64,000 nucleotides of DNA from positions 1-64,000 of the forward strand of contig JAFDKH010000001.1 of assembly GCA_019307065.1 (NCBI GenBank), read 5' to 3'. This DNA is from Deltaproteobacteria bacterium. Lineage in GTDB: Bacteria; Myxococcota; B64-G9. Below the pieces are notes generated by a model that worked only from the letters and a program-made list of their open reading frames with translations, searched no databases and was not told the origin of the DNA. Positions within the stretch are counted from its first letter, which is position 1. Each line of letters opens with the position of its first letter. Positions 13,990-55,853 of the stretch are shown here, piece by piece. A program made the position numbers and the translations under genes.

Positions 13990-14580
13990 CTAAATTATAT
14001 CCTTTCCCCCGGTAACTTCAAGCAACCTGGCCCGCAGCCTGGCTCTAGTTCTTTTAAGTCTGGATTTGATTCCGTCAATGCTAAGGCCGAATTTATCCGC
14101 CAACTCAGACAGCGAAACTTCTTGTCCTTCATGCAGCAAGAAAAGCTCGCGGTTGGGCTCTCCAATCTCTTCTAGAACACGCCCCAAGATGTCCAGACGT
14201 TCCGAGATCAATAGCTGAACTTCCTGGCCCGGCTGGCCACTCTCCGACTCGACATCGGCCGGCAAGTCTTCAAGGGCTTTATTGTATTTTGGATTGTTCT
14301 TGCGACCTCTTTGCATCCTCGCGCAGGAGGAATTCACCAGGCGGTACAACCATGTCCTCAAAGAAGCATCGCCTCGAAAACCATCCAGCGACCCGATGAC
14401 TAATTCGACGGTATCCTGGAAAGCATCTTCGGCCTGGGTCGGGTTCTTACAGCGGTATATTGCAGCCTTGTGCATTTCCGAAGAGAAGCACTCAATGATC
14501 TGCTCGGTCAACGAAGCAGCCGGTTGTCCGGATTTCAACATGGCTACGAAACCCGGACAGCTTCTTGTCTTTTTTGGCAT
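13990..14580 (-). CDS. ECF-type RNA polymerase sigma factor
   Basis: Sigma-70 region 2 (AEDAFQDTVELV) and region 4 HTH (SLSELADKFGLSIDGIKSRLKRTRARLRARL). Confidence 0.85.
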   Translation of the reverse strand: MPKKTRSCPGFVAMLKSGQPAASLTEQIIECFSSEMHKAAIYRCKNPTQAEDAFQDTVELVIGSLDGFRGDASLRTWLYRLVNSSCARMQRGRKNNPKYNKALEDLPADVESESGQPGQEVQLLISERLDILGRVLEEIGEPNRELFLLHEGQEVSLSELADKFGLSIDGIKSRLKRTRARLRARLLEVTGGKDII

Positions 14581-45949: not shown

Positions 45950-46101
45950 GGGCTAACCTAAAAACCTATCCCGTTCTGATTGCTATGCTAAAAAATACAG
46001 AATTTTGACTTGACGGGACAGAACAACCTGTTTTATACTAATTATTGATATATTAGCATGAAATTTTGACATCTCAAATAGCTGTATACATTGGTGAATT
46101 T

Positions 46102-47436
46102 ATGAAAATACCCCAAAAACCTCCTGGTGATGCAAGTTACTACAATTTTACTACTGTCAATTCTGCGAATCAATTGAGAATCTTGAAATCTGCAACCGGA
46201 CCCACAGTGGAAGGCAAATACCTGCATTGGGACGAATTGAGACATCGCAAGCCACCCGAATTAGTAAACCACTCAGAATGGTGGATGGGGCTGAAGTTAC
46301 ACAGAAACAGCAACAACAATCGAATCCCCTTGCTTGACAAGAACGGCGATAACTTTTGGTACTTAGTCGTGGATCCGGTTCCAGCCAGGCTGCATGAAAT
46401 TGATCTGGGCGCAGGGGGCCGCATTCAGATGCCCGAGCAAATAACAAACCCGGATACTCGTGACCAATACTATGTCAACTCCTTGATCGAAGAGGCGATC
46501 ACGTCCAGTCAATTGGAGGGCGCCACAACCACCAGGCAAATCGCCAAGGAGATGATCCGAACGAAACGCAAGCCGCAAGACAGAAGCGAACAGATGATCC
46601 TAAACAACTACCTGACCATGAAGCGAATTGGCAACCTCAAGAATGAGCCTCTATCAAAAGAGCTGATTTTAGAGATCCACAGGGTGATTACCGAGAATAC
46701 ACTCGATATTTCGTCGGCTGTCGGACGTTTCAGAAGGGATGACGAGAAGATAGTGGTCGGCCACAATTTGACCGACGAAGTATACCACCAGCCGCCTGAA
46801 GCCAAGCAGCTCGAGAGTCGTATGGATATTCTCTGTGCATTTGCAAACGAAGAAGGGGACCAGGAGTTTGTTCATCCTGTGATCAGAGCAATAATCTTGC
46901 ATTTCTGGCTTGCCTACGACCATCCTTTTGTAGATGGCAATGGAAGAACGGCCCGGGCGTTATTCTACTGGCTAATGGCGCGCAAGAAATATTGGCTATT
47001 CGAGTTTATCTCGATTTCCAACATTATCCTCAAGGCTCACACCAAATACTCAAGGGCGTTTCTACTGACAGAAACAGATGACAACGATCTCACATATTTC
47101 ATTCTCTATCACTTAGACGTCATACAAAAAGCAATTGGAGAGCTCCACGGATACATAAACCAAAAAACGAAGCGATTGAGTCAACTGGAGAGGGAGCTCA
47201 AAGGCTTATCAGAGTTAAACCATCGCCAGCGAGCCATCATCAGCCATGCCCTGCGGCACCCGCACCAGCAATATACATTCTATTCTCATGCTCAGAGCCA
47301 TGGCGTTACTCATCAGACAGCAAGATCCGATCTGAACGATCTGAAAAAGCGGGCATACCTCAAAGCCAGAAAAGTCGGTAGAAGATGGCTGTTTGAAGCA
47401 GTGGCAGGGCTTGAGAATATGTTGGCAATTGGATAG
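46102..47436 (+). CDS. Fic-domain protein (class II, with N-terminal inhibitory helix) and C-terminal winged helix
   Basis: HPFVDGNGRTARALF catalytic motif; SSQLEGA inhibitory motif; C-term HTH region. Confidence 0.93.
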   Translation: MKIPQKPPGDASYYNFTTVNSANQLRILKSATGPTVEGKYLHWDELRHRKPPELVNHSEWWMGLKLHRNSNNNRIPLLDKNGDNFWYLVVDPVPARLHEIDLGAGGRIQMPEQITNPDTRDQYYVNSLIEEAITSSQLEGATTTRQIAKEMIRTKRKPQDRSEQMILNNYLTMKRIGNLKNEPLSKELILEIHRVITENTLDISSAVGRFRRDDEKIVVGHNLTDEVYHQPPEAKQLESRMDILCAFANEEGDQEFVHPVIRAIILHFWLAYDHPFVDGNGRTARALFYWLMARKKYWLFEFISISNIILKAHTKYSRAFLLTETDDNDLTYFILYHLDVIQKAIGELHGYINQKTKRLSQLERELKGLSELNHRQRAIISHALRHPHQQYTFYSHAQSHGVTHQTARSDLNDLKKRAYLKARKVGRRWLFEAVAGLENMLAIG

Positions 47437-47942: not shown

Positions 47943-49463
47943 TTGGGTTCTTTACTCAATCCCGGTGACCGGCTCGGTCATTTCGAAATTAAGCAGAAGA
48001 TCGGCGCGAGTGCGACCGGAATCGTCTACCTGGCCATGGACAACCAGGCCGGCAACCTGGTTGCCCTCAAACTTCTCAGCCCGCTGATTGCCGCCAAGGC
48101 AGCTGACCAGTTCGATCAGTTCCGCGAACGGGTCCTGCAGATTAAGCAGGTGGCCCATCCCGGGGTCTGTCGCTTGTTCGATGTTGTCCAAGACAAGGGT
48201 TTTGTCTTTCTATCGATGGAATATATCGAGGGCCCGACCCTGAAAAGAGTTATCCGGCTTTCCGGCGCATTGCCGCTTGGGCAGGCAACAAAGCTTATGC
48301 AAAACACCTGCGTGGCTGTAGGCGCCGCTCATGAGAGCGGTTTCGTCCACCGCGATTTGAAACCGTCCAATATCATTTTACGCGGCCAGGTCAAAATCTC
48401 GGTGCTTGATTTCGGTCTCTCGGGGAGTTTGAGCCGCGCAGACATTACTGCTGCAAGCAAAGAGATCGAAACCGTTTTGTATATGTCGCCCGAAGTCAGC
48501 CGCGACGAGACGGCAACATTACTAAGCGACATCTACTCTTTGGGCGCAACGCTTTACGAGTGCGCCACCGGGCGCCCGCCCTTCAAGGGGGCCAACCTGG
48601 CCGAAACGCTCCAGGCAATCAAGGCCGGCCAACCCGTCGCCCCCGGCCAGATCAATTCTGATATCACGCCCTCTTTAGAAAACGTGATTACCAAAGCCAT
48701 GGCTAGCGACCCTAAAGACCGCTTTAAAAATTCGGCCCAGTTCGTCCAGGCCCTGTCTGGGGTCAACCTGGGGGAAGCCGCTGCTTCTTTGCCCTGGGAA
48801 GATTGTGTAACCAACCAGGGACCTTGGCATGGAGATATCGACAAGAGTGTCCAGGCGATTATGGACGATCCCGATTCATCCAAAGTGCTGATGTCGCGCA
48901 TGTCGGACACTACGATTCTCTTTTCCGAAATCGTCGGCATATCCGCATTTTTTGACGAATTCGGGAGCGTCGCGGGGACCGAAAGAATACAAGCTCACAA
49001 CAAACTGGTTTTTCCGGTTGTTGAACGCTACAACGGCAAGGTACTCAAGGCCATGGGTGAAGTAGTTGTCAGCTGTTTCGACACGCCGGCAGAAGGTGTC
49101 GGGGCAGCCATTGGTATTCATCGCGCGCTACAAGACTTCAACAGCTTAGCGGGCGACCAGGATAAAAAAATCAGCATTCGCCTGGGCCTGCATTGTGGAA
49201 AATCTGTATTCAAAGACAGTCAAGCTGCCGGTCAATCGATCAGAATTGCGGCCCAGATAGCAGCCCTGGCAGCTAACAACCAGATCTTGATATCCGAGAT
49301 TGCAAAAAAAACGCTCAACCCCGAACTTCACCCGACCTCACTGCATTCGAGCGCCAACCTGCACGGGCGCGAAGAGGAAATCAGATTGTTTTTGGTCGAA
49401 TTGAACCCGCCAACCGAAGAACCAACCCCGACCGACCGGCCACGTCCGAAGGCCGGTCGCTAG
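47943..49463 (+). CDS. Ser/Thr protein kinase fused to a class III nucleotide-cyclase-like domain
   Basis: VHRDLKPSNIIL, DFGLS, SDIYSLGATLYECATGRPPF kinase motifs; TTILFSEIVGISAFF...KAMGEVVVSCFDTPAEGVGAAIGIHRAL...IRLGLHCG cyclase-like domain. Confidence 0.88.
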   Translation: MGSLLNPGDRLGHFEIKQKIGASATGIVYLAMDNQAGNLVALKLLSPLIAAKAADQFDQFRERVLQIKQVAHPGVCRLFDVVQDKGFVFLSMEYIEGPTLKRVIRLSGALPLGQATKLMQNTCVAVGAAHESGFVHRDLKPSNIILRGQVKISVLDFGLSGSLSRADITAASKEIETVLYMSPEVSRDETATLLSDIYSLGATLYECATGRPPFKGANLAETLQAIKAGQPVAPGQINSDITPSLENVITKAMASDPKDRFKNSAQFVQALSGVNLGEAAASLPWEDCVTNQGPWHGDIDKSVQAIMDDPDSSKVLMSRMSDTTILFSEIVGISAFFDEFGSVAGTERIQAHNKLVFPVVERYNGKVLKAMGEVVVSCFDTPAEGVGAAIGIHRALQDFNSLAGDQDKKISIRLGLHCGKSVFKDSQAAGQSIRIAAQIAALAANNQILISEIAKKTLNPELHPTSLHSSANLHGREEEIRLFLVELNPPTEEPTPTDRPRPKAGR

Positions 49464-49470
49464 GGCAGCC

Positions 49471-50571
49471 TCAGTTCTCAAATATCCCCAGATCCCAACG
49501 CAACAAGGTCCAGTTCATGTCGGCCGACATGTTCAGATCGGAAATTTCGGCGCCATTGGTCTGGAGTACGATGAAATGCGACGCGCCATCGGAACAGTTC
49601 AGGCGCGTGTTGGAGTCGGGCAGTTCTTCAAGATCACAAGTATCGAACCATCTCGCCATCGAGTCATTGGATTGAAGCACCATATAACGGTATTTTCTTT
49701 CCAGTTCGAACCCATCCCAGAGATTACACGGCGATGTACCGCAGCCCGGCGTCGGCGCTTGATATACATGATTCGTACCGTTATCGATCGGCTCAGCGTA
49801 AATTGTCCAGCTTCCGTTAAAAAAATCTCCAGCGTCATCGAGGTCGTTTGTACGGATAATTACCGTCCTGCCCGAATTGGCCTGGCAGACCAGTTCGTCC
49901 CGGTCTGTTAAATTCATGCTTCTGACCATGCAACGCCGGTACCAGGCTACCAGGTCCTGGTCGACTCGCCCGATGAAATAACGGTGGTCTCCGTCGAGTT
50001 CAAAGCCTGAAAACATCTCGCAAACTCTTTTGCCACATCCGGCCTTGGCCGCAATCATTACATCCTGCCCGGTAGAACGATGCAGCACAGACCAGGTTAT
50101 GGCCGGATCGTGCTCCCAGGGCACCGACAAAACGCCATTTCCAAAAAGCTCAACCTGGCTGCCGGCTCTATCACGGCAAACCAATTTGCCGCTTGATAAA
50201 TTCGGCCTCTCGACCCAGCAATTATCGAATGACAGAGTTGTGCCGTTTTCGGTACTCCGCCCCGGGTAGTTGCGATCTTGACCATAACAAAGGTCACTGA
50301 ACTCACAAGGCGCTTTATCGCAAATAGCCGCGGGCCCGACAATTGGAGAATAATCGGAGGTTGCATTTTCAGGTGTACACGCCACAACCAACGGCTGGCC
50401 GGCATCGGGAATCTCACAACCCGGCTGGCTGTCGTCCAGGTCGCAGTCATCCGGCGCTTCGTCGGTCGAAAACCCACCGGCCAAAAAATTGCAGCCGGGA
50501 ACCATGTAAATCGACAGGCAGCCAACCAGCAGGAGTGGCAATAGGCCAAGTCTTCGATATTTTTTCGCCAT
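49471..50571 (-). CDS. Hypothetical lipoprotein
   Basis: Signal peptide MAKKYRRLGLLPLLLVGCLSIYMVPGCN; internal ATG 50571 starts directly after the upstream gene. Confidence 0.65.
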   Translation of the reverse strand: MAKKYRRLGLLPLLLVGCLSIYMVPGCNFLAGGFSTDEAPDDCDLDDSQPGCEIPDAGQPLVVACTPENATSDYSPIVGPAAICDKAPCEFSDLCYGQDRNYPGRSTENGTTLSFDNCWVERPNLSSGKLVCRDRAGSQVELFGNGVLSVPWEHDPAITWSVLHRSTGQDVMIAAKAGCGKRVCEMFSGFELDGDHRYFIGRVDQDLVAWYRRCMVRSMNLTDRDELVCQANSGRTVIIRTNDLDDAGDFFNGSWTIYAEPIDNGTNHVYQAPTPGCGTSPCNLWDGFELERKYRYMVLQSNDSMARWFDTCDLEELPDSNTRLNCSDGASHFIVLQTNGAEISDLNMSADMNWTLLRWDLGIFEN

Positions 50572-50572
50572 C

Positions 50573-51580
50573 TCAAAACCTCCCGAAAACTTCCGCCCCG
50601 GCAAAGCCCGACCCGACTGACGGGCGAAGCTCGATGCCATCTCCTGAAAAGGGATCATCATCGCAAATCGCCAGAATAAGAATTCCTGCCAGAGTAGCCG
50701 CAGCCCCAACTCCTAACAATACGTTTGTCGCCATGGCCAGGTTGTCTATTCGATTGATCTCACTTTCATGCCCAGGAGGGCAGGTTCTGCCGCCACATTC
50801 GTTTTCGAGATCACGATCCAGCGACAGGCTCAGTCCACCGGTCGCAGCCCCGGAGACCAGCAGCGCTCCAGCAACCCCAAGCGATACCCAACCCCAGGTC
50901 CTCAATGAACTAGCGGCGGCCGGTTCTGGGCCCGGGCCGCTGTCGAGAATCACGACCGGCCGGGATTTGACTTCTTGTTCAAAGGGCTTCTTGCCGCTCT
51001 CAACCAACGTTTTATTTGCCACTGGGGCCGGTGGTAAACCTTCGCTGGTCGCAACTGCCAACTCCTGGCTATCTGGTTCAGGTTGTGTAAGCCCAAGGGG
51101 TTTCATGACCGCCGTTAATACATCGACCAAAACAGACGACTCGGAAAACTCGGCGGCTGACGCAGTCGCTGTCTTTTCGCTGACCACTTGACCGGATTCT
51201 GCACTATATAACTTGGCTGCGATTCTTACCTGAGGCCCGAGTCGATTCACCTTGATCTCGAGCACGCCGACTACGCCCAACTTTTTGCACAGGCTACGCA
51301 AACAGGCGGGTTCACTAAAACAACCCCCGTCGATAACCGCTTCTTCGCGTGGATCGGGTGTCACGATTGCCCGCATGGTCGTAAGTTTGTCGATGATGGC
51401 TGTCAGAGTTGCGTCGGCAACTTCGGGCTTGAGACCTTCGGTACTGAATGTGCCGATAGTTATCTTGATCGGCGATGCAGTCTTCGCTGAATCGATCTGT
51501 TCGGGTTCGGGGCTTTGAGCAATTGCGAGTCCGGCGAATACGACAAGAAAAAGGGGCAGTCCTAGCGGTAGTCTTTTCAT
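50573..51580 (-). CDS. Exported/membrane hypothetical protein with N-terminal signal and C-terminal TM hairpin
   Basis: MKRLPLGLPLFLVVFAGLAIA; C-term two hydrophobic segments flanking CGGRTCPPG. Confidence 0.7.
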   Translation of the reverse strand: MKRLPLGLPLFLVVFAGLAIAQSPEPEQIDSAKTASPIKITIGTFSTEGLKPEVADATLTAIIDKLTTMRAIVTPDPREEAVIDGGCFSEPACLRSLCKKLGVVGVLEIKVNRLGPQVRIAAKLYSAESGQVVSEKTATASAAEFSESSVLVDVLTAVMKPLGLTQPEPDSQELAVATSEGLPPAPVANKTLVESGKKPFEQEVKSRPVVILDSGPGPEPAAASSLRTWGWVSLGVAGALLVSGAATGGLSLSLDRDLENECGGRTCPPGHESEINRIDNLAMATNVLLGVGAAATLAGILILAICDDDPFSGDGIELRPSVGSGFAGAEVFGRF

Positions 51581-51699
51581 TTTCGTCCCTCACGTGGCCT
51601 CTGAGAAACTCGAAGATCAAACTGACCCGTTGCTGCATGTTGAGTTTAGCATTTTGTGCCGAAAAATAACAGGAGGGGGTCTTATTCTCTATTTATAAA

Positions 51700-52404
51700 C
51701 TATCTATCCGGCAGTGATCTCAGTTGGCGACAGACAGTATCGGCCGGAACAGATTCGAGCCAGTCTCGAGAAATGCTTGTACGGTCCGGCACTTGTGGCG
51801 AAGTTACCAGACAAATGATCGCCTCAGCCTGGCCGGACAACTTAAAAGCGCCGGGCAGTCCCACTCGATTCCCGCAACTCAAAACAGCGCCGGGATTTAG
51901 CGGGAAAAAGATCTCGTCACCCTGGAGCACGACCAGATCCCAATACAATTCTTCGCCTGGCGGGCAGGTAACCAATACTTTGAAACGATCGCCTGTCATG
52001 AAGGCCTCAGGCTCGTGCTTGATCACTCCCATCCGATCGCGTACCAGCGAAATAGTCAACTCGCCGCCCTTGTAGGCAATCTTTTGAGGCGGTAGCTTAC
52101 CGGCCAGCTGGTCCGGCCAGCCGAACTTTAAGACAATCAACAATATAGCCGCAGCCGCCAAAGAAGCCGTCGCGGTAATCCAGGCCAGACTGAACCAGCC
52201 CGGGCGTTGGGGTTCGAGCTGGATGCGAGGCAAGGGTTTCAGTTCGGCCCCGGCTTGCTTGATTTGCTCCAGACAGGATCGACATACCTCACAATCCTCG
52301 AGATGATTTTCAACCCGGCCCGCTTCAGCGCCGGACAGCTCCTGCAAGTGATACATTTCCAGCCTGAGCCAGCTAAGTGCTTGACTCTTGCACTCACCGT
52401 TCAT
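51700..52404 (-). CDS. Zinc-finger anti-sigma factor-like membrane protein
   Basis: N-term VENHLEDCEVCRSCLEQ (Hx3Cx2C); central TM; 4-bp overlap with ECF sigma gene. Confidence 0.8.
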   Translation of the reverse strand: MNGECKSQALSWLRLEMYHLQELSGAEAGRVENHLEDCEVCRSCLEQIKQAGAELKPLPRIQLEPQRPGWFSLAWITATASLAAAAILLIVLKFGWPDQLAGKLPPQKIAYKGGELTISLVRDRMGVIKHEPEAFMTGDRFKVLVTCPPGEELYWDLVVLQGDEIFFPLNPGAVLSCGNRVGLPGAFKLSGQAEAIICLVTSPQVPDRTSISRDWLESVPADTVCRQLRSLPDR

Positions 52405-52877
52405 GACTCACCTCTCAGGCCGTTTTGAGACAACTCTTTGACCCTGGCCTTGATTTTTTCCAAACGTTTACCAACTGTTTTTCGACTGGTCCCGATAAGC
52501 TTGGCGATTTCGTCCTGCGTCATTTCGTCAAAAAAACGATAGATTAAGATCTCGATGCTTTTCTTGTCGAGGCCCTCAGACAGCTTGACCAACAAATCCA
52601 CCCCGATCGCCTGCTCGTCGCAGCGGATCCTGACCGGGCCCCTCAAGGCAATATCGTGTTCCCGTAGAAGGCGTCTTCGATTTTCTCCATAACGCAAATG
52701 GTTTATGCAGCGATTGGTAACCGCACGATACAGGTAGGGCAGATCGAGTGAAGTTTGGCCTTTTTTGAGCATGTCCACAAAGAGCCCCTGCACGATATCC
52801 TCTGCATCCTGGCGGTTCTGGAGCATCCGCTGACATTTACGTAAAAGCGCCGGGCCGTATCTTTGGTACGCATCCAT
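52401..52877 (-). CDS. ECF-type sigma factor
   Basis: NRQDAEDIVQGLFVDML region 2; MTQDEIAKLIGTSRKTVGKRLEKIKARV region 4. Confidence 0.88.
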   Translation of the reverse strand: MDAYQRYGPALLRKCQRMLQNRQDAEDIVQGLFVDMLKKGQTSLDLPYLYRAVTNRCINHLRYGENRRRLLREHDIALRGPVRIRCDEQAIGVDLLVKLSEGLDKKSIEILIYRFFDEMTQDEIAKLIGTSRKTVGKRLEKIKARVKELSQNGLRGES

Positions 52878-52896
52878 TTATATATTGGCCACTAGT

Positions 52897-53994
52897 TTAT
52901 TGGCACTGGCCCCCGGTCTCGCCGATCGGAAGACAGGCATTCCACAAGGGACATTCCTCGTCGAGCTGACAGCGTCTGCCGTCTAAAAAACACTGCTTGA
53001 GTTGGCCGACACCTTGGCAGTCAGCGCTAATGCAATCATCGTCTTTCAGGCAGACCACCGAAGATTCCATAGCGCCTTCGCCCGGGGAACACTGATGGGG
53101 CAAAATCTGGAACTCGTAATCCTCTCCCAATGTGCGCCAGTCACGGATTTTACAGTCTGTCTGGTTTGGGCAGCCTTGTCCGTCACAACATTGCGAGCAG
53201 ATGCCCTGACAACAGAACCCGCCGGCACATTCATCCGCGCTGATACATCTATCGCCGAGCAAGTGCCGGCCGGCTGGGCCGCAATCCTGATATAGCCAGC
53301 CGGCAAGTCCGGCTTCGAGGCCACACACTTCCAGGCCCGAACAATCAATGTCGTTTCTGCAGCCGCTACAGGCGCGCACTTGAGATCCGTCCATATCCGG
53401 ACGCCACTGCAGGACCGATATACAGCGAGCCTGGGCACACTGATTGTCAAATTCACAAGTGGCTCCCATGGGCCGATCGTTCAATTCGAGCCGCGCACCG
53501 CCACACTCATCACATTTCGATATTTTAATTTGGGCAAGCACGGCCCGCCCAAAACCTTCTTTTACGATAGTGAAGCGGACTTTTACGTACCAGCTCGGAG
53601 TCAACATGCAATATCGAACGGGCTTGTAGTTTTCACTGGGCAACGGGTGGCTATACTCAGTGCTGCCGTCGTCGAGAAAATCCATACTAATGCTGAGAGC
53701 AACTCCGGGGTCGCTGTCGGCCTGCAACTCGAATTCGAAACAATCAGCTTCAGCAGACGTTATCTCGGAGGTTTGATAAATGACTACTGGATCGCCAACC
53801 AGTTCAACTCCATAGTCGGCCCGGTGCCAGGTAGCTACTCGGGCGACATCACCGCTTTCGACAGTCCAGGCACACAAGTCGTTTCCACACCACAGATCGA
53901 ATCCCGGGTCCAGATCAATCGGAGGCCCGCAGGTCCAACCAGGAAAGACCGTCAAAGAAAGCAGGCAGCTACAAATTAGCAAAAAGCGACTCAT
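52897..53994 (-). CDS. Cys-rich lipoprotein
   Basis: Signal peptide MSRFLLICSCLLSLTVFPGWTCG; repeated CxxDxxC motifs. Confidence 0.7.
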   Translation of the reverse strand: MSRFLLICSCLLSLTVFPGWTCGPPIDLDPGFDLWCGNDLCAWTVESGDVARVATWHRADYGVELVGDPVVIYQTSEITSAEADCFEFELQADSDPGVALSISMDFLDDGSTEYSHPLPSENYKPVRYCMLTPSWYVKVRFTIVKEGFGRAVLAQIKISKCDECGGARLELNDRPMGATCEFDNQCAQARCISVLQWRPDMDGSQVRACSGCRNDIDCSGLEVCGLEAGLAGWLYQDCGPAGRHLLGDRCISADECAGGFCCQGICSQCCDGQGCPNQTDCKIRDWRTLGEDYEFQILPHQCSPGEGAMESSVVCLKDDDCISADCQGVGQLKQCFLDGRRCQLDEECPLWNACLPIGETGGQCQ

Positions 53995-54019
53995 TTTCTT
54001 ATCCTCCAAAACCAACCGG

Positions 54020-55699
54020 CTACAGGGCACCCCGAATACCGATCATTCCGCTCAGCCCGCCACTGTCATGGATATCGCCCAGATTATTTCCGATCACCGG
54101 TGCATGCGTGTAGTTCAGCTGGCCGAACACGCCAAAATTATCCAAGATCATGACATTCAGACCGGCCCCAACTTCAATGTGGTAACCCCAATGTACTTGA
54201 TCGTCGACAACCTCAGAGGCCTGAACAGGATCTTTGAAGACCGACGTTCCAAACGAAAGCCCACCGCCGGCCTGCATGTAGGGGTTGAGGATTCCGTCAA
54301 TCAACGGCAGAGTCCCGCGCACATAAAAACCGACATCGTAGGCCGACCATTCGAAAGTCTGAAAACGCTGGTTGTCTTCGAGATCATAGACTTCTTTTTC
54401 ATAGGCCCCACCGCCCATGCTGGAAAAACCTATTATCAACGACAGGTAGCGACTGAAGCTATACATACCGGCCAATGAGAACGAAAAAGTCTCATTGAAG
54501 CGAAACAGCTGTTCGTTGAAGCCAAAGTCTCTCAGGCGCGTGGAGTAGTTGTCGGATATGCCGCGCCGGACACCAAAAGAAAGCTCGAGACCCCAGGTTT
54601 CACGGAAGGCTTCCGGGGGACCCTTTATCCCTATTTCGCCGGGCTCGGCCAGACTGCATTCTTCCAGTACCAATTCGGCTGTCTGATCCTGGCCCAGATC
54701 CAGATCACACTTAAAGACATCCTCTTCGCTACGAACAAAGACACGGTATTGACCCTCGGGAATAGCCAGCCGAATCGCCTGGCCCGCGACCTTGGTCATT
54801 TCGGCAACTACGCTTTGACTTTCCCGGCCGTGGACCAATACATCCCCGGCCAACTGCACAGGCAGTCTCAGGACTGAAGATGCCCGGGCCGGAAAAGTCA
54901 GGACCATGTCACCCTTGCCCTTGAGTTCGGTTTCGAGAGTAACGTGTTGTTTGCCGATTGCCGTGCTGGCAGTCGAAATCAATGTACGATTGTAGGCGTA
55001 GTTATAGGCCTCACTTAACGTCACCCGCCCGTCCGAATCTAAATCAGCCGCCCCGCGCAGGCCAACTACCAGATGATGAGTGAAGAAAGAAGATTTCAGC
55101 GATTCGGCTTCCTGGCTCAATTCTGAAGCCGCCGAGGAAGCCATCACCACCACTCCGGCGGTATTGAGATGATTGACCGAGTTGAAAGAGAAGTCTGCGG
55201 CCGGCTCGACTCCCTTGATCCTCGAGATGGCCCCGGTCTGGCAAGCATCCAGGATTGCGATCGTCAAAGTCGCCGGCATCGATTCCAGCAGGCTGCGCAG
55301 CCTGGTCAGCTCTAGCTCTTCGACTCCCATATTTAATGCGTTGGCTCGGGCGTGCCCTGAATAATAAAGCAAGAACACTGAAGACTCGTCTGAACCTTCG
55401 TGAACGGCCAGCCGGCTCTTGACCTCGGCGATTGCGTCGAGTAGTTGCTGTTGCCCGGGGTCGAGTATCATTGTCGTGTTCTCGACTGAATAACCACCGA
55501 GTTGGGTCAAAACATCCCGGATTCGGCGGGCATCTTGTTGGGCATACCGCAAATCTTCTTGCCCGGGACCGCCCCGATTCGAGCCAATGATCAAGGCGTA
55601 AGCGTTGGGCCTTTGAGTTTGATCGTCTGCCAGGCTTGGACCGACCACGAGCAGGGTAACAATTGCTAATATAATTGAACTCTTTTTTTGGACAAACAC
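54020..55699 (-). CDS. Exported caspase-like (C14) protease domain - EF-hand-like loop - C-terminal outer-membrane beta-barrel-like domain
   Basis: Signal peptide; YYSGHA and DACQTG His/Cys dyad; DLDSDGRVTLSE EF-hand consensus; C-terminal alternating beta pattern ending MIGIRGAL. Confidence 0.85.
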   Translation of the reverse strand: MFVQKKSSIILAIVTLLVVGPSLADDQTQRPNAYALIIGSNRGGPGQEDLRYAQQDARRIRDVLTQLGGYSVENTTMILDPGQQQLLDAIAEVKSRLAVHEGSDESSVFLLYYSGHARANALNMGVEELELTRLRSLLESMPATLTIAILDACQTGAISRIKGVEPAADFSFNSVNHLNTAGVVVMASSAASELSQEAESLKSSFFTHHLVVGLRGAADLDSDGRVTLSEAYNYAYNRTLISTASTAIGKQHVTLETELKGKGDMVLTFPARASSVLRLPVQLAGDVLVHGRESQSVVAEMTKVAGQAIRLAIPEGQYRVFVRSEEDVFKCDLDLGQDQTAELVLEECSLAEPGEIGIKGPPEAFRETWGLELSFGVRRGISDNYSTRLRDFGFNEQLFRFNETFSFSLAGMYSFSRYLSLIIGFSSMGGGAYEKEVYDLEDNQRFQTFEWSAYDVGFYVRGTLPLIDGILNPYMQAGGGLSFGTSVFKDPVQASEVVDDQVHWGYHIEVGAGLNVMILDNFGVFGQLNYTHAPVIGNNLGDIHDSGGLSGMIGIRGAL

Positions 55700-55853
55700 G
55701 GCCTCACCTCCGCGGACGTAAGCGATAACATGCCTCGCGTCTTATATTGGTATAACATCTCAGCGGCCGGGTTTGGGAACCTGTCCGCCCAGACAGGCCG
55801 TCTGCAGTCTCAATTTGTTGTTTTTGCTGGTGTTTGAAGAACTGTCCGGCTGG

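Follow-up and report, generated by a model that had tools for sequence, protein, structure and literature searches.

Recurrent association of a predicted outer-membrane caspase with an extracytoplasmic function sigma/anti-sigma pair in Myxococcota, and its possible role in envelope signalling

In this study, the gene content, recurrence and possible function of an operon encoding an exported caspase together with an extracytoplasmic function (ECF) sigma factor and a membrane anti-sigma factor were investigated in a 64,000-nucleotide stretch of DNA (the window; positions 1 to 64,000 of contig JAFDKH010000001.1, assembly GCA_019307065.1, a Deltaproteobacteria bacterium placed by GTDB in Myxococcota, B64-G9). 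Six minus-strand genes are packed between positions 49471 and 55699 with gaps of 25, 19, -4, 119 and 1 bp, and our gene calls agreed base for base with the coordinates and spacings of an initial annotation made from the letters alone. The genes, in order of transcription, and the promoter predicted ahead of them are as follows.

54020..55699, minus strand: gene 1, 559 aa, exported caspase (Peptidase C14) with a predicted C-terminal eight-stranded outer-membrane beta-barrel; dyad His116/Cys153; EF-hand-like loop D219-E230.
52897..53994, minus strand: gene 2, 365 aa, exported Cys-rich protein; conserved N-terminal domain of about 165 aa followed by Cys-rich repeats.
52401..52877, minus strand: gene 3, 158 aa, ECF sigma factor with sigma2 and sigma4 only.
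51700..52404, minus strand: gene 4, 234 aa, membrane anti-sigma factor with zf-HC2, one transmembrane (TM) segment (about 72-94) and a periplasmic DUF4384-like beta domain.
50573..51580, minus strand: gene 5, 335 aa, exported protein with a C-terminal TM hairpin; lineage-specific addition past the 119-bp gap.
49471..50571, minus strand: gene 6, 366 aa, predicted lipoprotein; lineage-specific addition.
55753..55779, minus strand: predicted ECF-type promoter TTCCCA-N16-TGTTA, 53 nt before the caspase start, kept in orthologous operons.

We observed that the conserved unit consists of genes 1 to 4, that is, the outer-membrane-barrel caspase, the Cys-rich exported protein, the ECF sigma and the zf-HC2 anti-sigma, and not of all six genes as initially annotated. 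No counterparts of genes 5 and 6 were found in orthologous operons of the window type (caspase, exported protein, sigma, anti-sigma), about 30 loci of which were noticed in other genera; relatives of gene 5 exist outside such operons, and gene 6 gave matches in the source genome only, among 13 genomes searched. These two genes are local additions, and their co-transcription with genes 1 to 4 across the 119-bp gap is putative and unproven. Gene 2 is orthologous in most window-type operons, directly after the caspase, with its N-terminal domain carrying most of the matches. It was initially annotated as a Cys-rich lipoprotein; its being a lipoprotein is likely but unproven, as the Cys in its signal peptide stands without a canonical lipobox. 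Genes 2, 5 and 6 gave no Pfam match.

The product of gene 1 combines a C14 caspase fold bearing a His/Cys dyad (Peptidase_C14, PF00656, E=1.5e-16) with a C-terminal barrel of the eight-stranded OmpA/OmpX type (OMP_b-brl, E=1.2e-6, above the cut-off). In its predicted structure eight C-terminal strands span residues 368-558, and Foldseek comparison aligned this part with OmpA-type barrels (9fzc, TM-score 0.68 by target length) and the N-terminal part with caspase-6 (3s8e, TM-score 0.65 by target length). The dyad of His116 and Cys153 was invariant in all 149 unique caspase sequences, of which the GTDB subset had been fetched by patterns containing His116 or Cys153, and 70-odd, obtained by whole-genome search, without such patterns. 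An Asp two residues ahead of Cys153 is present in 148 of the 149, and the end residues of the EF-hand-like loop, D219 and E230, in 148 and 149, respectively. The match to the EACC1-type caspase model (NF047832) reached 67.2 bits against a curated 140. A domain preceding an outer-membrane barrel on its N-terminal side would lie in the periplasm, and the protease domain is therefore predicted to be periplasmic, with the barrel anchored in the outer membrane. Two more distant module caspases of the source genome, at loci L033 and L037, have, in place of the beta-barrel, a C-terminal TM hairpin similar to that of window gene 5. Cleavage after Arg or Lys is a property of non-metazoan C14 proteases (PMC5756287; PMC6426788), and from this family knowledge and the conserved Asp two residues before Cys the window caspase is predicted to share it.

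The sigma factor is small and contains only sigma2 (Sigma70_r2, residues 4-63) and sigma4 (r4_2, residues 99-145), scoring 66.8 bits with TIGR02937 against a cut-off of 42.9, and its gene overlaps the anti-sigma gene by 4 bp. Though the zf-HC2 score of gene 4 (PF13490, 22.8) lies barely above the cut-off of 22.2, the protein displays the features of a zinc-binding (ZAS) membrane anti-sigma: the HxxxCxxC motif as H34/C38/C41, modelled helices at 12-51 and a single TM segment at 72-94. Its model (mean pLDDT 87.4) consists of the zinc-finger helices, the TM segment and a periplasmic beta domain, for which no PDB fold match with E below 0.01 was obtained. DUF4384 (PF14326; gathering score 27 bits) was recognised with 41.2 bits in the paralogue at L030 and with about 20-22 bits in those at L027, L031 and L032, and gave no match to the window anti-sigma, whose beta domain appears related to the DUF4384 seen in paralogues. 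The most conserved anti-sigma site is Lys112-Gly113, 18 residues past the TM segment. Both residues are present in 26/26 window-type anti-sigmas, and among all 120 anti-sigmas the site has K in 90%, R in 3% (K/R 93%) and G in 98%, the zinc ligands being kept in about 78-80%. Because this is the most conserved site and non-metazoan C14 proteases cut after Arg/Lys, the bond after Lys112 is a candidate, and most plausibly the one, for cleavage by the caspase.

In the source genome (6.6 Mb, 471 contigs), 13 caspase matches were detected, and sigma and anti-sigma paralogues were found on the caspase-bearing contigs. An ECF/anti-sigma pair lies beside the caspase at 12 of these 13 loci, the window included, with two of them incomplete or divergent. 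Gene maps of ten loci displayed the order sigma, anti-sigma, caspase, usually followed by a lipoprotein gene. At an eleventh, L029, the contig ends inside the sigma gene; at L037 no zinc finger could be recognised in the anti-sigma-like protein, although its gene follows an ECF reading frame; and L034, at a contig end, has no pair. An apparent anti-sigma-caspase fusion at L029 (positions 104-2506 of that locus, on contig C404; 800 aa) was rejected, as it arises from a frameshift, and the caspase starts separately, with a signal peptide of its own; the true end of that anti-sigma runs in another frame, the frameshift being either a sequencing error or a real mutation.

Loci of relatives were sought with a five-orthologue caspase alignment, the eight own-genome paralogues being too diverged as a query, and the sample comprised 60 loci from relatives and 80 GTDB contigs, the latter mostly labelled Myxococcota, Myxococcales or Deltaproteobacteria, with three labelled Fibrobacter or Chitinivibrionales. 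The initial annotation had proposed a neighbourhood search for homologous caspase and sigma genes in other genomes; these do occur together, the pair adjoining the caspase at most loci: 9/9 own-genome, 36/41 relative and 45/47 GTDB loci with 2.5 kb of flank on both sides. Only two ECF matches were noticed in 367 kb of more distant flank, the background ECF density being about 1 per 180 kb. The 155 caspase reading frames fall into 101 preceded by sigma and anti-sigma (the canonical type), 31 followed by both (30 if L081, which is a different case, is set aside) and 23, several of them at contig ends, that are without one or both. Both types consist of the same four parts and differ in the side of the caspase and its exported partner on which the sigma/anti-sigma pair lies; at most loci the caspase and anti-sigma genes are contiguous or overlap, typically by 4 bp. 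Since the caspase has sigma and anti-sigma genes beside it at 12 of 13 own-genome loci and at most loci of relatives, the window operon is one copy of a large family and not a chance arrangement.

The search was also made in reverse, with an anti-sigma profile in four other genomes, where 35 of 42 full-length matches (E<1e-14) adjoined an already listed caspase. Six of the seven exceptions were inspected, five of which have a more diverged caspase adjoining and one none, and the seventh lies at a contig end, so that at least 40 of the 42 stand beside a caspase. Full-length anti-sigmas were detected in 113 of 146 Myxococcota genomes and 57 of 78 genera, with at least 18 in the richest genome, and relatives harbor up to 21 caspase matches per genome. 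Complete modules are present in the cultured Pyxidicoccus fallax and Hyalangium versicolor. Family caspases with no sigma pair within 3 kb were noticed at L080, L082, L094, L107, L154 and L200, possibly orphans served by a distant module. A metagenome-assembled genome titled Klebsiella pneumoniae (L187, CAMAWH010000006.1) carries a Myxococcota-type module and is probably a mislabelled bin.

The three proteins also evolve in a correlated manner. Across 120 triples, pairwise distances correlated at 0.56 for caspase and sigma, 0.575 for caspase and anti-sigma, and 0.51 for sigma and anti-sigma, the largest value among 300 permutations being 0.12, and the correlation persisted among the source-genome paralogues (0.63 and 0.55, n=11). 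Thus the caspase tracks the pair as closely as sigma and anti-sigma track each other, with common species history contributing to the correlation.

Upstream of window-type caspases, 12 of 34 sequences contained TTCCCA-N16-[AT]GTT, and with any other spacing from 8 to 25 between the two halves the count fell to 0-1; the motif did not emerge upstream of the internal sigma gene of these operons. Downstream of the window copy (55779-55753) come a Shine-Dalgarno-like GGAGG and the caspase's GTG start. The extended form TTCCCA-N14-GATGTTA has exactly three sites in the source genome, about 0.2 being expected for 13 fixed bases: one heads the window operon and the others precede two lipoprotein genes, on contigs C70 and C344, at distances of 31 and 42 nt, while in one relative (G003) it occurs once only, before the orthologous operon. 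Sites of the form TTCCCA-N16-WGTTA would be recognised by the module's own sigma. The regulon is stated from exact sites only, as allowing one mismatch gave 5 pattern matches against 7 in a reversed control, with both one-mismatch sites intragenic. A promoter shared by all canonical modules was likewise rejected, because none was distinguishable from coding signal and shuffles, and TTCCCA-N16-NGTT occurred in 2 of 94 only. A motif resembling the window-type promoter also precedes the sigma gene of the distant paralogous module L035 (C418:1631-1657), which hints at cross-talk.

The initial view that the protease and an exported protein form a module with the sigma pair is strongly supported by genome- and phylum-wide co-occurrence, correlated evolution and the promoter at the operon head. 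From the computed gene content, compartment predictions, recurrence, correlated evolution and conserved promoter we infer a mechanism, including cleavage, cut site, signal, a role of Ca2+ and promoter recognition by this sigma, that would run as follows. The ECF sigma would be held at the inner membrane by the cytoplasmic zf-HC2 domain of the anti-sigma, and the exported caspase, with its OmpA-like barrel in the outer membrane, would expose its protease domain to the periplasm. In response to a signal at the surface or in the envelope, perhaps in a Ca2+-dependent manner through the EF-hand-like loop and perhaps with participation of the Cys-rich partner protein, the caspase would cut the periplasmic part of the anti-sigma, most plausibly after Lys112 of the near-invariant Lys-Gly beside the membrane. 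This site-1 cleavage would lead to release of the sigma, which would then direct transcription from TTCCCA-N16-WGTTA promoters, namely those of its own operon and of a few lipoprotein genes. We give an even chance to this autoregulated envelope-signalling operon, in which a periplasmic, outer-membrane-anchored caspase is the site-1 protease for the anti-sigma.

Several observations weigh against this reading. The model places Lys-Gly at a turn between the first two strands of a folded domain, where it may be structural. The KG is also present in L233, a DUF4384-like protein that is not an anti-sigma, but not in another such protein, at L034, and the anti-sigma L230 retains RIKG with no adjoining caspase. 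A family caspase without a sigma pair nearby was found at 7 of the 88 non-own loci with adequate flanks, and the caspase model was built from five sequences only, with a mean pLDDT of 64.8. That the caspase cleaves the anti-sigma is what we infer, and its position as first gene of a sigma-headed operon is also compatible with an effector role.

Such a role is the substance of the main alternative, in which the caspase is the output: the anti-sigma would sense through its DUF4384-like domain by another route, such as conformational change or a housekeeping site-1 protease, and the sigma would switch on an outer-membrane caspase and lipoproteins, and these would act on other cells or process surface proteins. 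ECF sigmas usually control neighbouring genes, and the window-type caspase is the first gene after a sigma-type promoter, the remaining exact promoter sites preceding lipoprotein genes; an exported gene follows the caspase in 72 of 129 cases, a figure biased by how the gene was picked. However, the caspase gene abuts the anti-sigma gene at most loci, caspase distances match those of the anti-sigma as closely as the sigma's do, beyond expectation for a generic target, and an Arg/Lys-type protease and a near-invariant periplasmic Lys-Gly would meet in one compartment. We regard the caspase as output as possible, though well short of an even chance. It is unlikely, in our view, that the caspase instead processes the partner Cys-rich or lipoprotein product, with a released fragment serving as signal or ligand for an anti-sigma that is itself no substrate: the orthologous Cys-rich gene in most window-type operons and the lipoprotein genes after the caspase in own-genome paralogues are in line with this, but the partner is very variable in canonical loci and the anti-sigma periplasmic domain constant. 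A programmed-death or anti-phage suicide module, like those using C14/CHAT proteases in some bacteria and also raised initially, could be suggested by the caspase fold, a weak match to the PADLOC 'caspase' model and the Craspase precedent for caspase-sigma coupling (PMC10028731), but is very improbable for an exported, outer-membrane-anchored protein with no CRISPR-like repeat within 24 kb, no further PADLOC match, and copy numbers and a spread across genomes ill-suited to a suicide device.

What bacterial caspase homologues do has long been asked, mostly with cell death in mind. The present family is large, is predicted to sit on an outer-membrane barrel and is linked to ECF sigma/anti-sigma pairs by gene order, correlated evolution and a conserved promoter. 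This yields a specific and testable signalling role, with the substrate, site, promoter and reporter all defined, in organisms with very large signalling repertoires, cultured ones included. More tentatively, and somewhat below an even chance, up to about twenty parallel caspase-sigma channels may operate per cell, each with a Ca2+-responsive outer-membrane caspase as dedicated site-1 protease cutting a juxtamembrane Lys-Gly; if true, this would be a class of trans-envelope signalling similar in scale to TonB/FecR surface signalling, in which the caspase fold serves to signal rather than to kill.

With reference to known systems, the closest in logic is Craspase (type III-E CRISPR: Csx29 TPR-CHAT, Csx30 and CASP-sigma), in which the CHAT protease cuts Csx30, the inhibitor of CASP-sigma (PMC10028731). 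Both encode an ECF sigma together with its inhibitor and a caspase-clan protease, and Craspase proteolysis relieves inhibition; however, the Craspase parts are cytoplasmic and RNA-guided, the protease is of the CHAT and not the classical C14 type, and the inhibitor Csx30 differs from a zf-HC2 membrane anti-sigma, whereas the window module has an exported, barrel-anchored protease, a transmembrane DUF4384-type anti-sigma and many paralogues. No direct repeats of 22 bp or more within 200 bp of each other were found in 40000-64000, cas genes not being searched singly. DdvS-DdvA of Myxococcus xanthus, in the same phylum, also appears to link a zf-HC2-type anti-sigma to a caspase-clan (CHAT) domain. 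Our anti-sigma profile matches, over the anti-sigma part, both a DdvA domain (PDB 8rlz) and a 991-aa 'CHAT domain-containing protein' (8rot, including the TM segment), which from the shared aligned segment is probably DdvA; since the same residues are matched in both, an anti-sigma/CHAT fusion appears to exist in Myxococcota. DdvA would be one polypeptide fused with CHAT, whereas the 234-aa window anti-sigma has a DUF4384-like domain and no protease domain, the C14 caspase being separate, on an outer-membrane barrel. In the RseA-DegS-RseP/sigmaE system, a single-pass membrane anti-sigma with a periplasmic sensor part likewise undergoes a periplasmic site-1 cut, but DegS is an inner-membrane PDZ serine protease encoded outside the operon, and the candidate here is an operon-encoded outer-membrane caspase, one per sigma pair. 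Caspase or CHAT genes also adjoin ECF sigma genes in neighbourhood surveys of the ECF54 group and EACC2 systems (PMC8999054; PMC8195603), but ECF54 is without an anti-sigma, and in EACC2 systems the caspase and EACC2 domains are coupled to partners of the TRADD-N or TPR kind. In none of Craspase, ECF54, EACC2 and DdvA is a separate C14 caspase on a barrel anchor paired with a membrane anti-sigma of the DUF4384 type. In the open-access literature we found no paper joining C14 caspases with zf-HC2 anti-sigma/ECF pairs in Myxococcota, in agreement with the first impression that the combination is not a described system, though an ECF group for this family may already exist in the published ECF re-classification.

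Other genes of the window were also noticed. A further sigma-70-family (ECF-like) gene lies at 13990-14580 on the minus strand, with no adjoining anti-sigma recognised by the anti-sigma profile. A Fic-domain protein is encoded at 46066-47436 (plus strand) in the stretch of lowest G+C of the window (0.479), and is possibly acquired. A Ser/Thr protein kinase fused to a nucleotide-cyclase domain (47943-49463, plus strand) converges on the end of the operon, with 7 bp between the stop codons.

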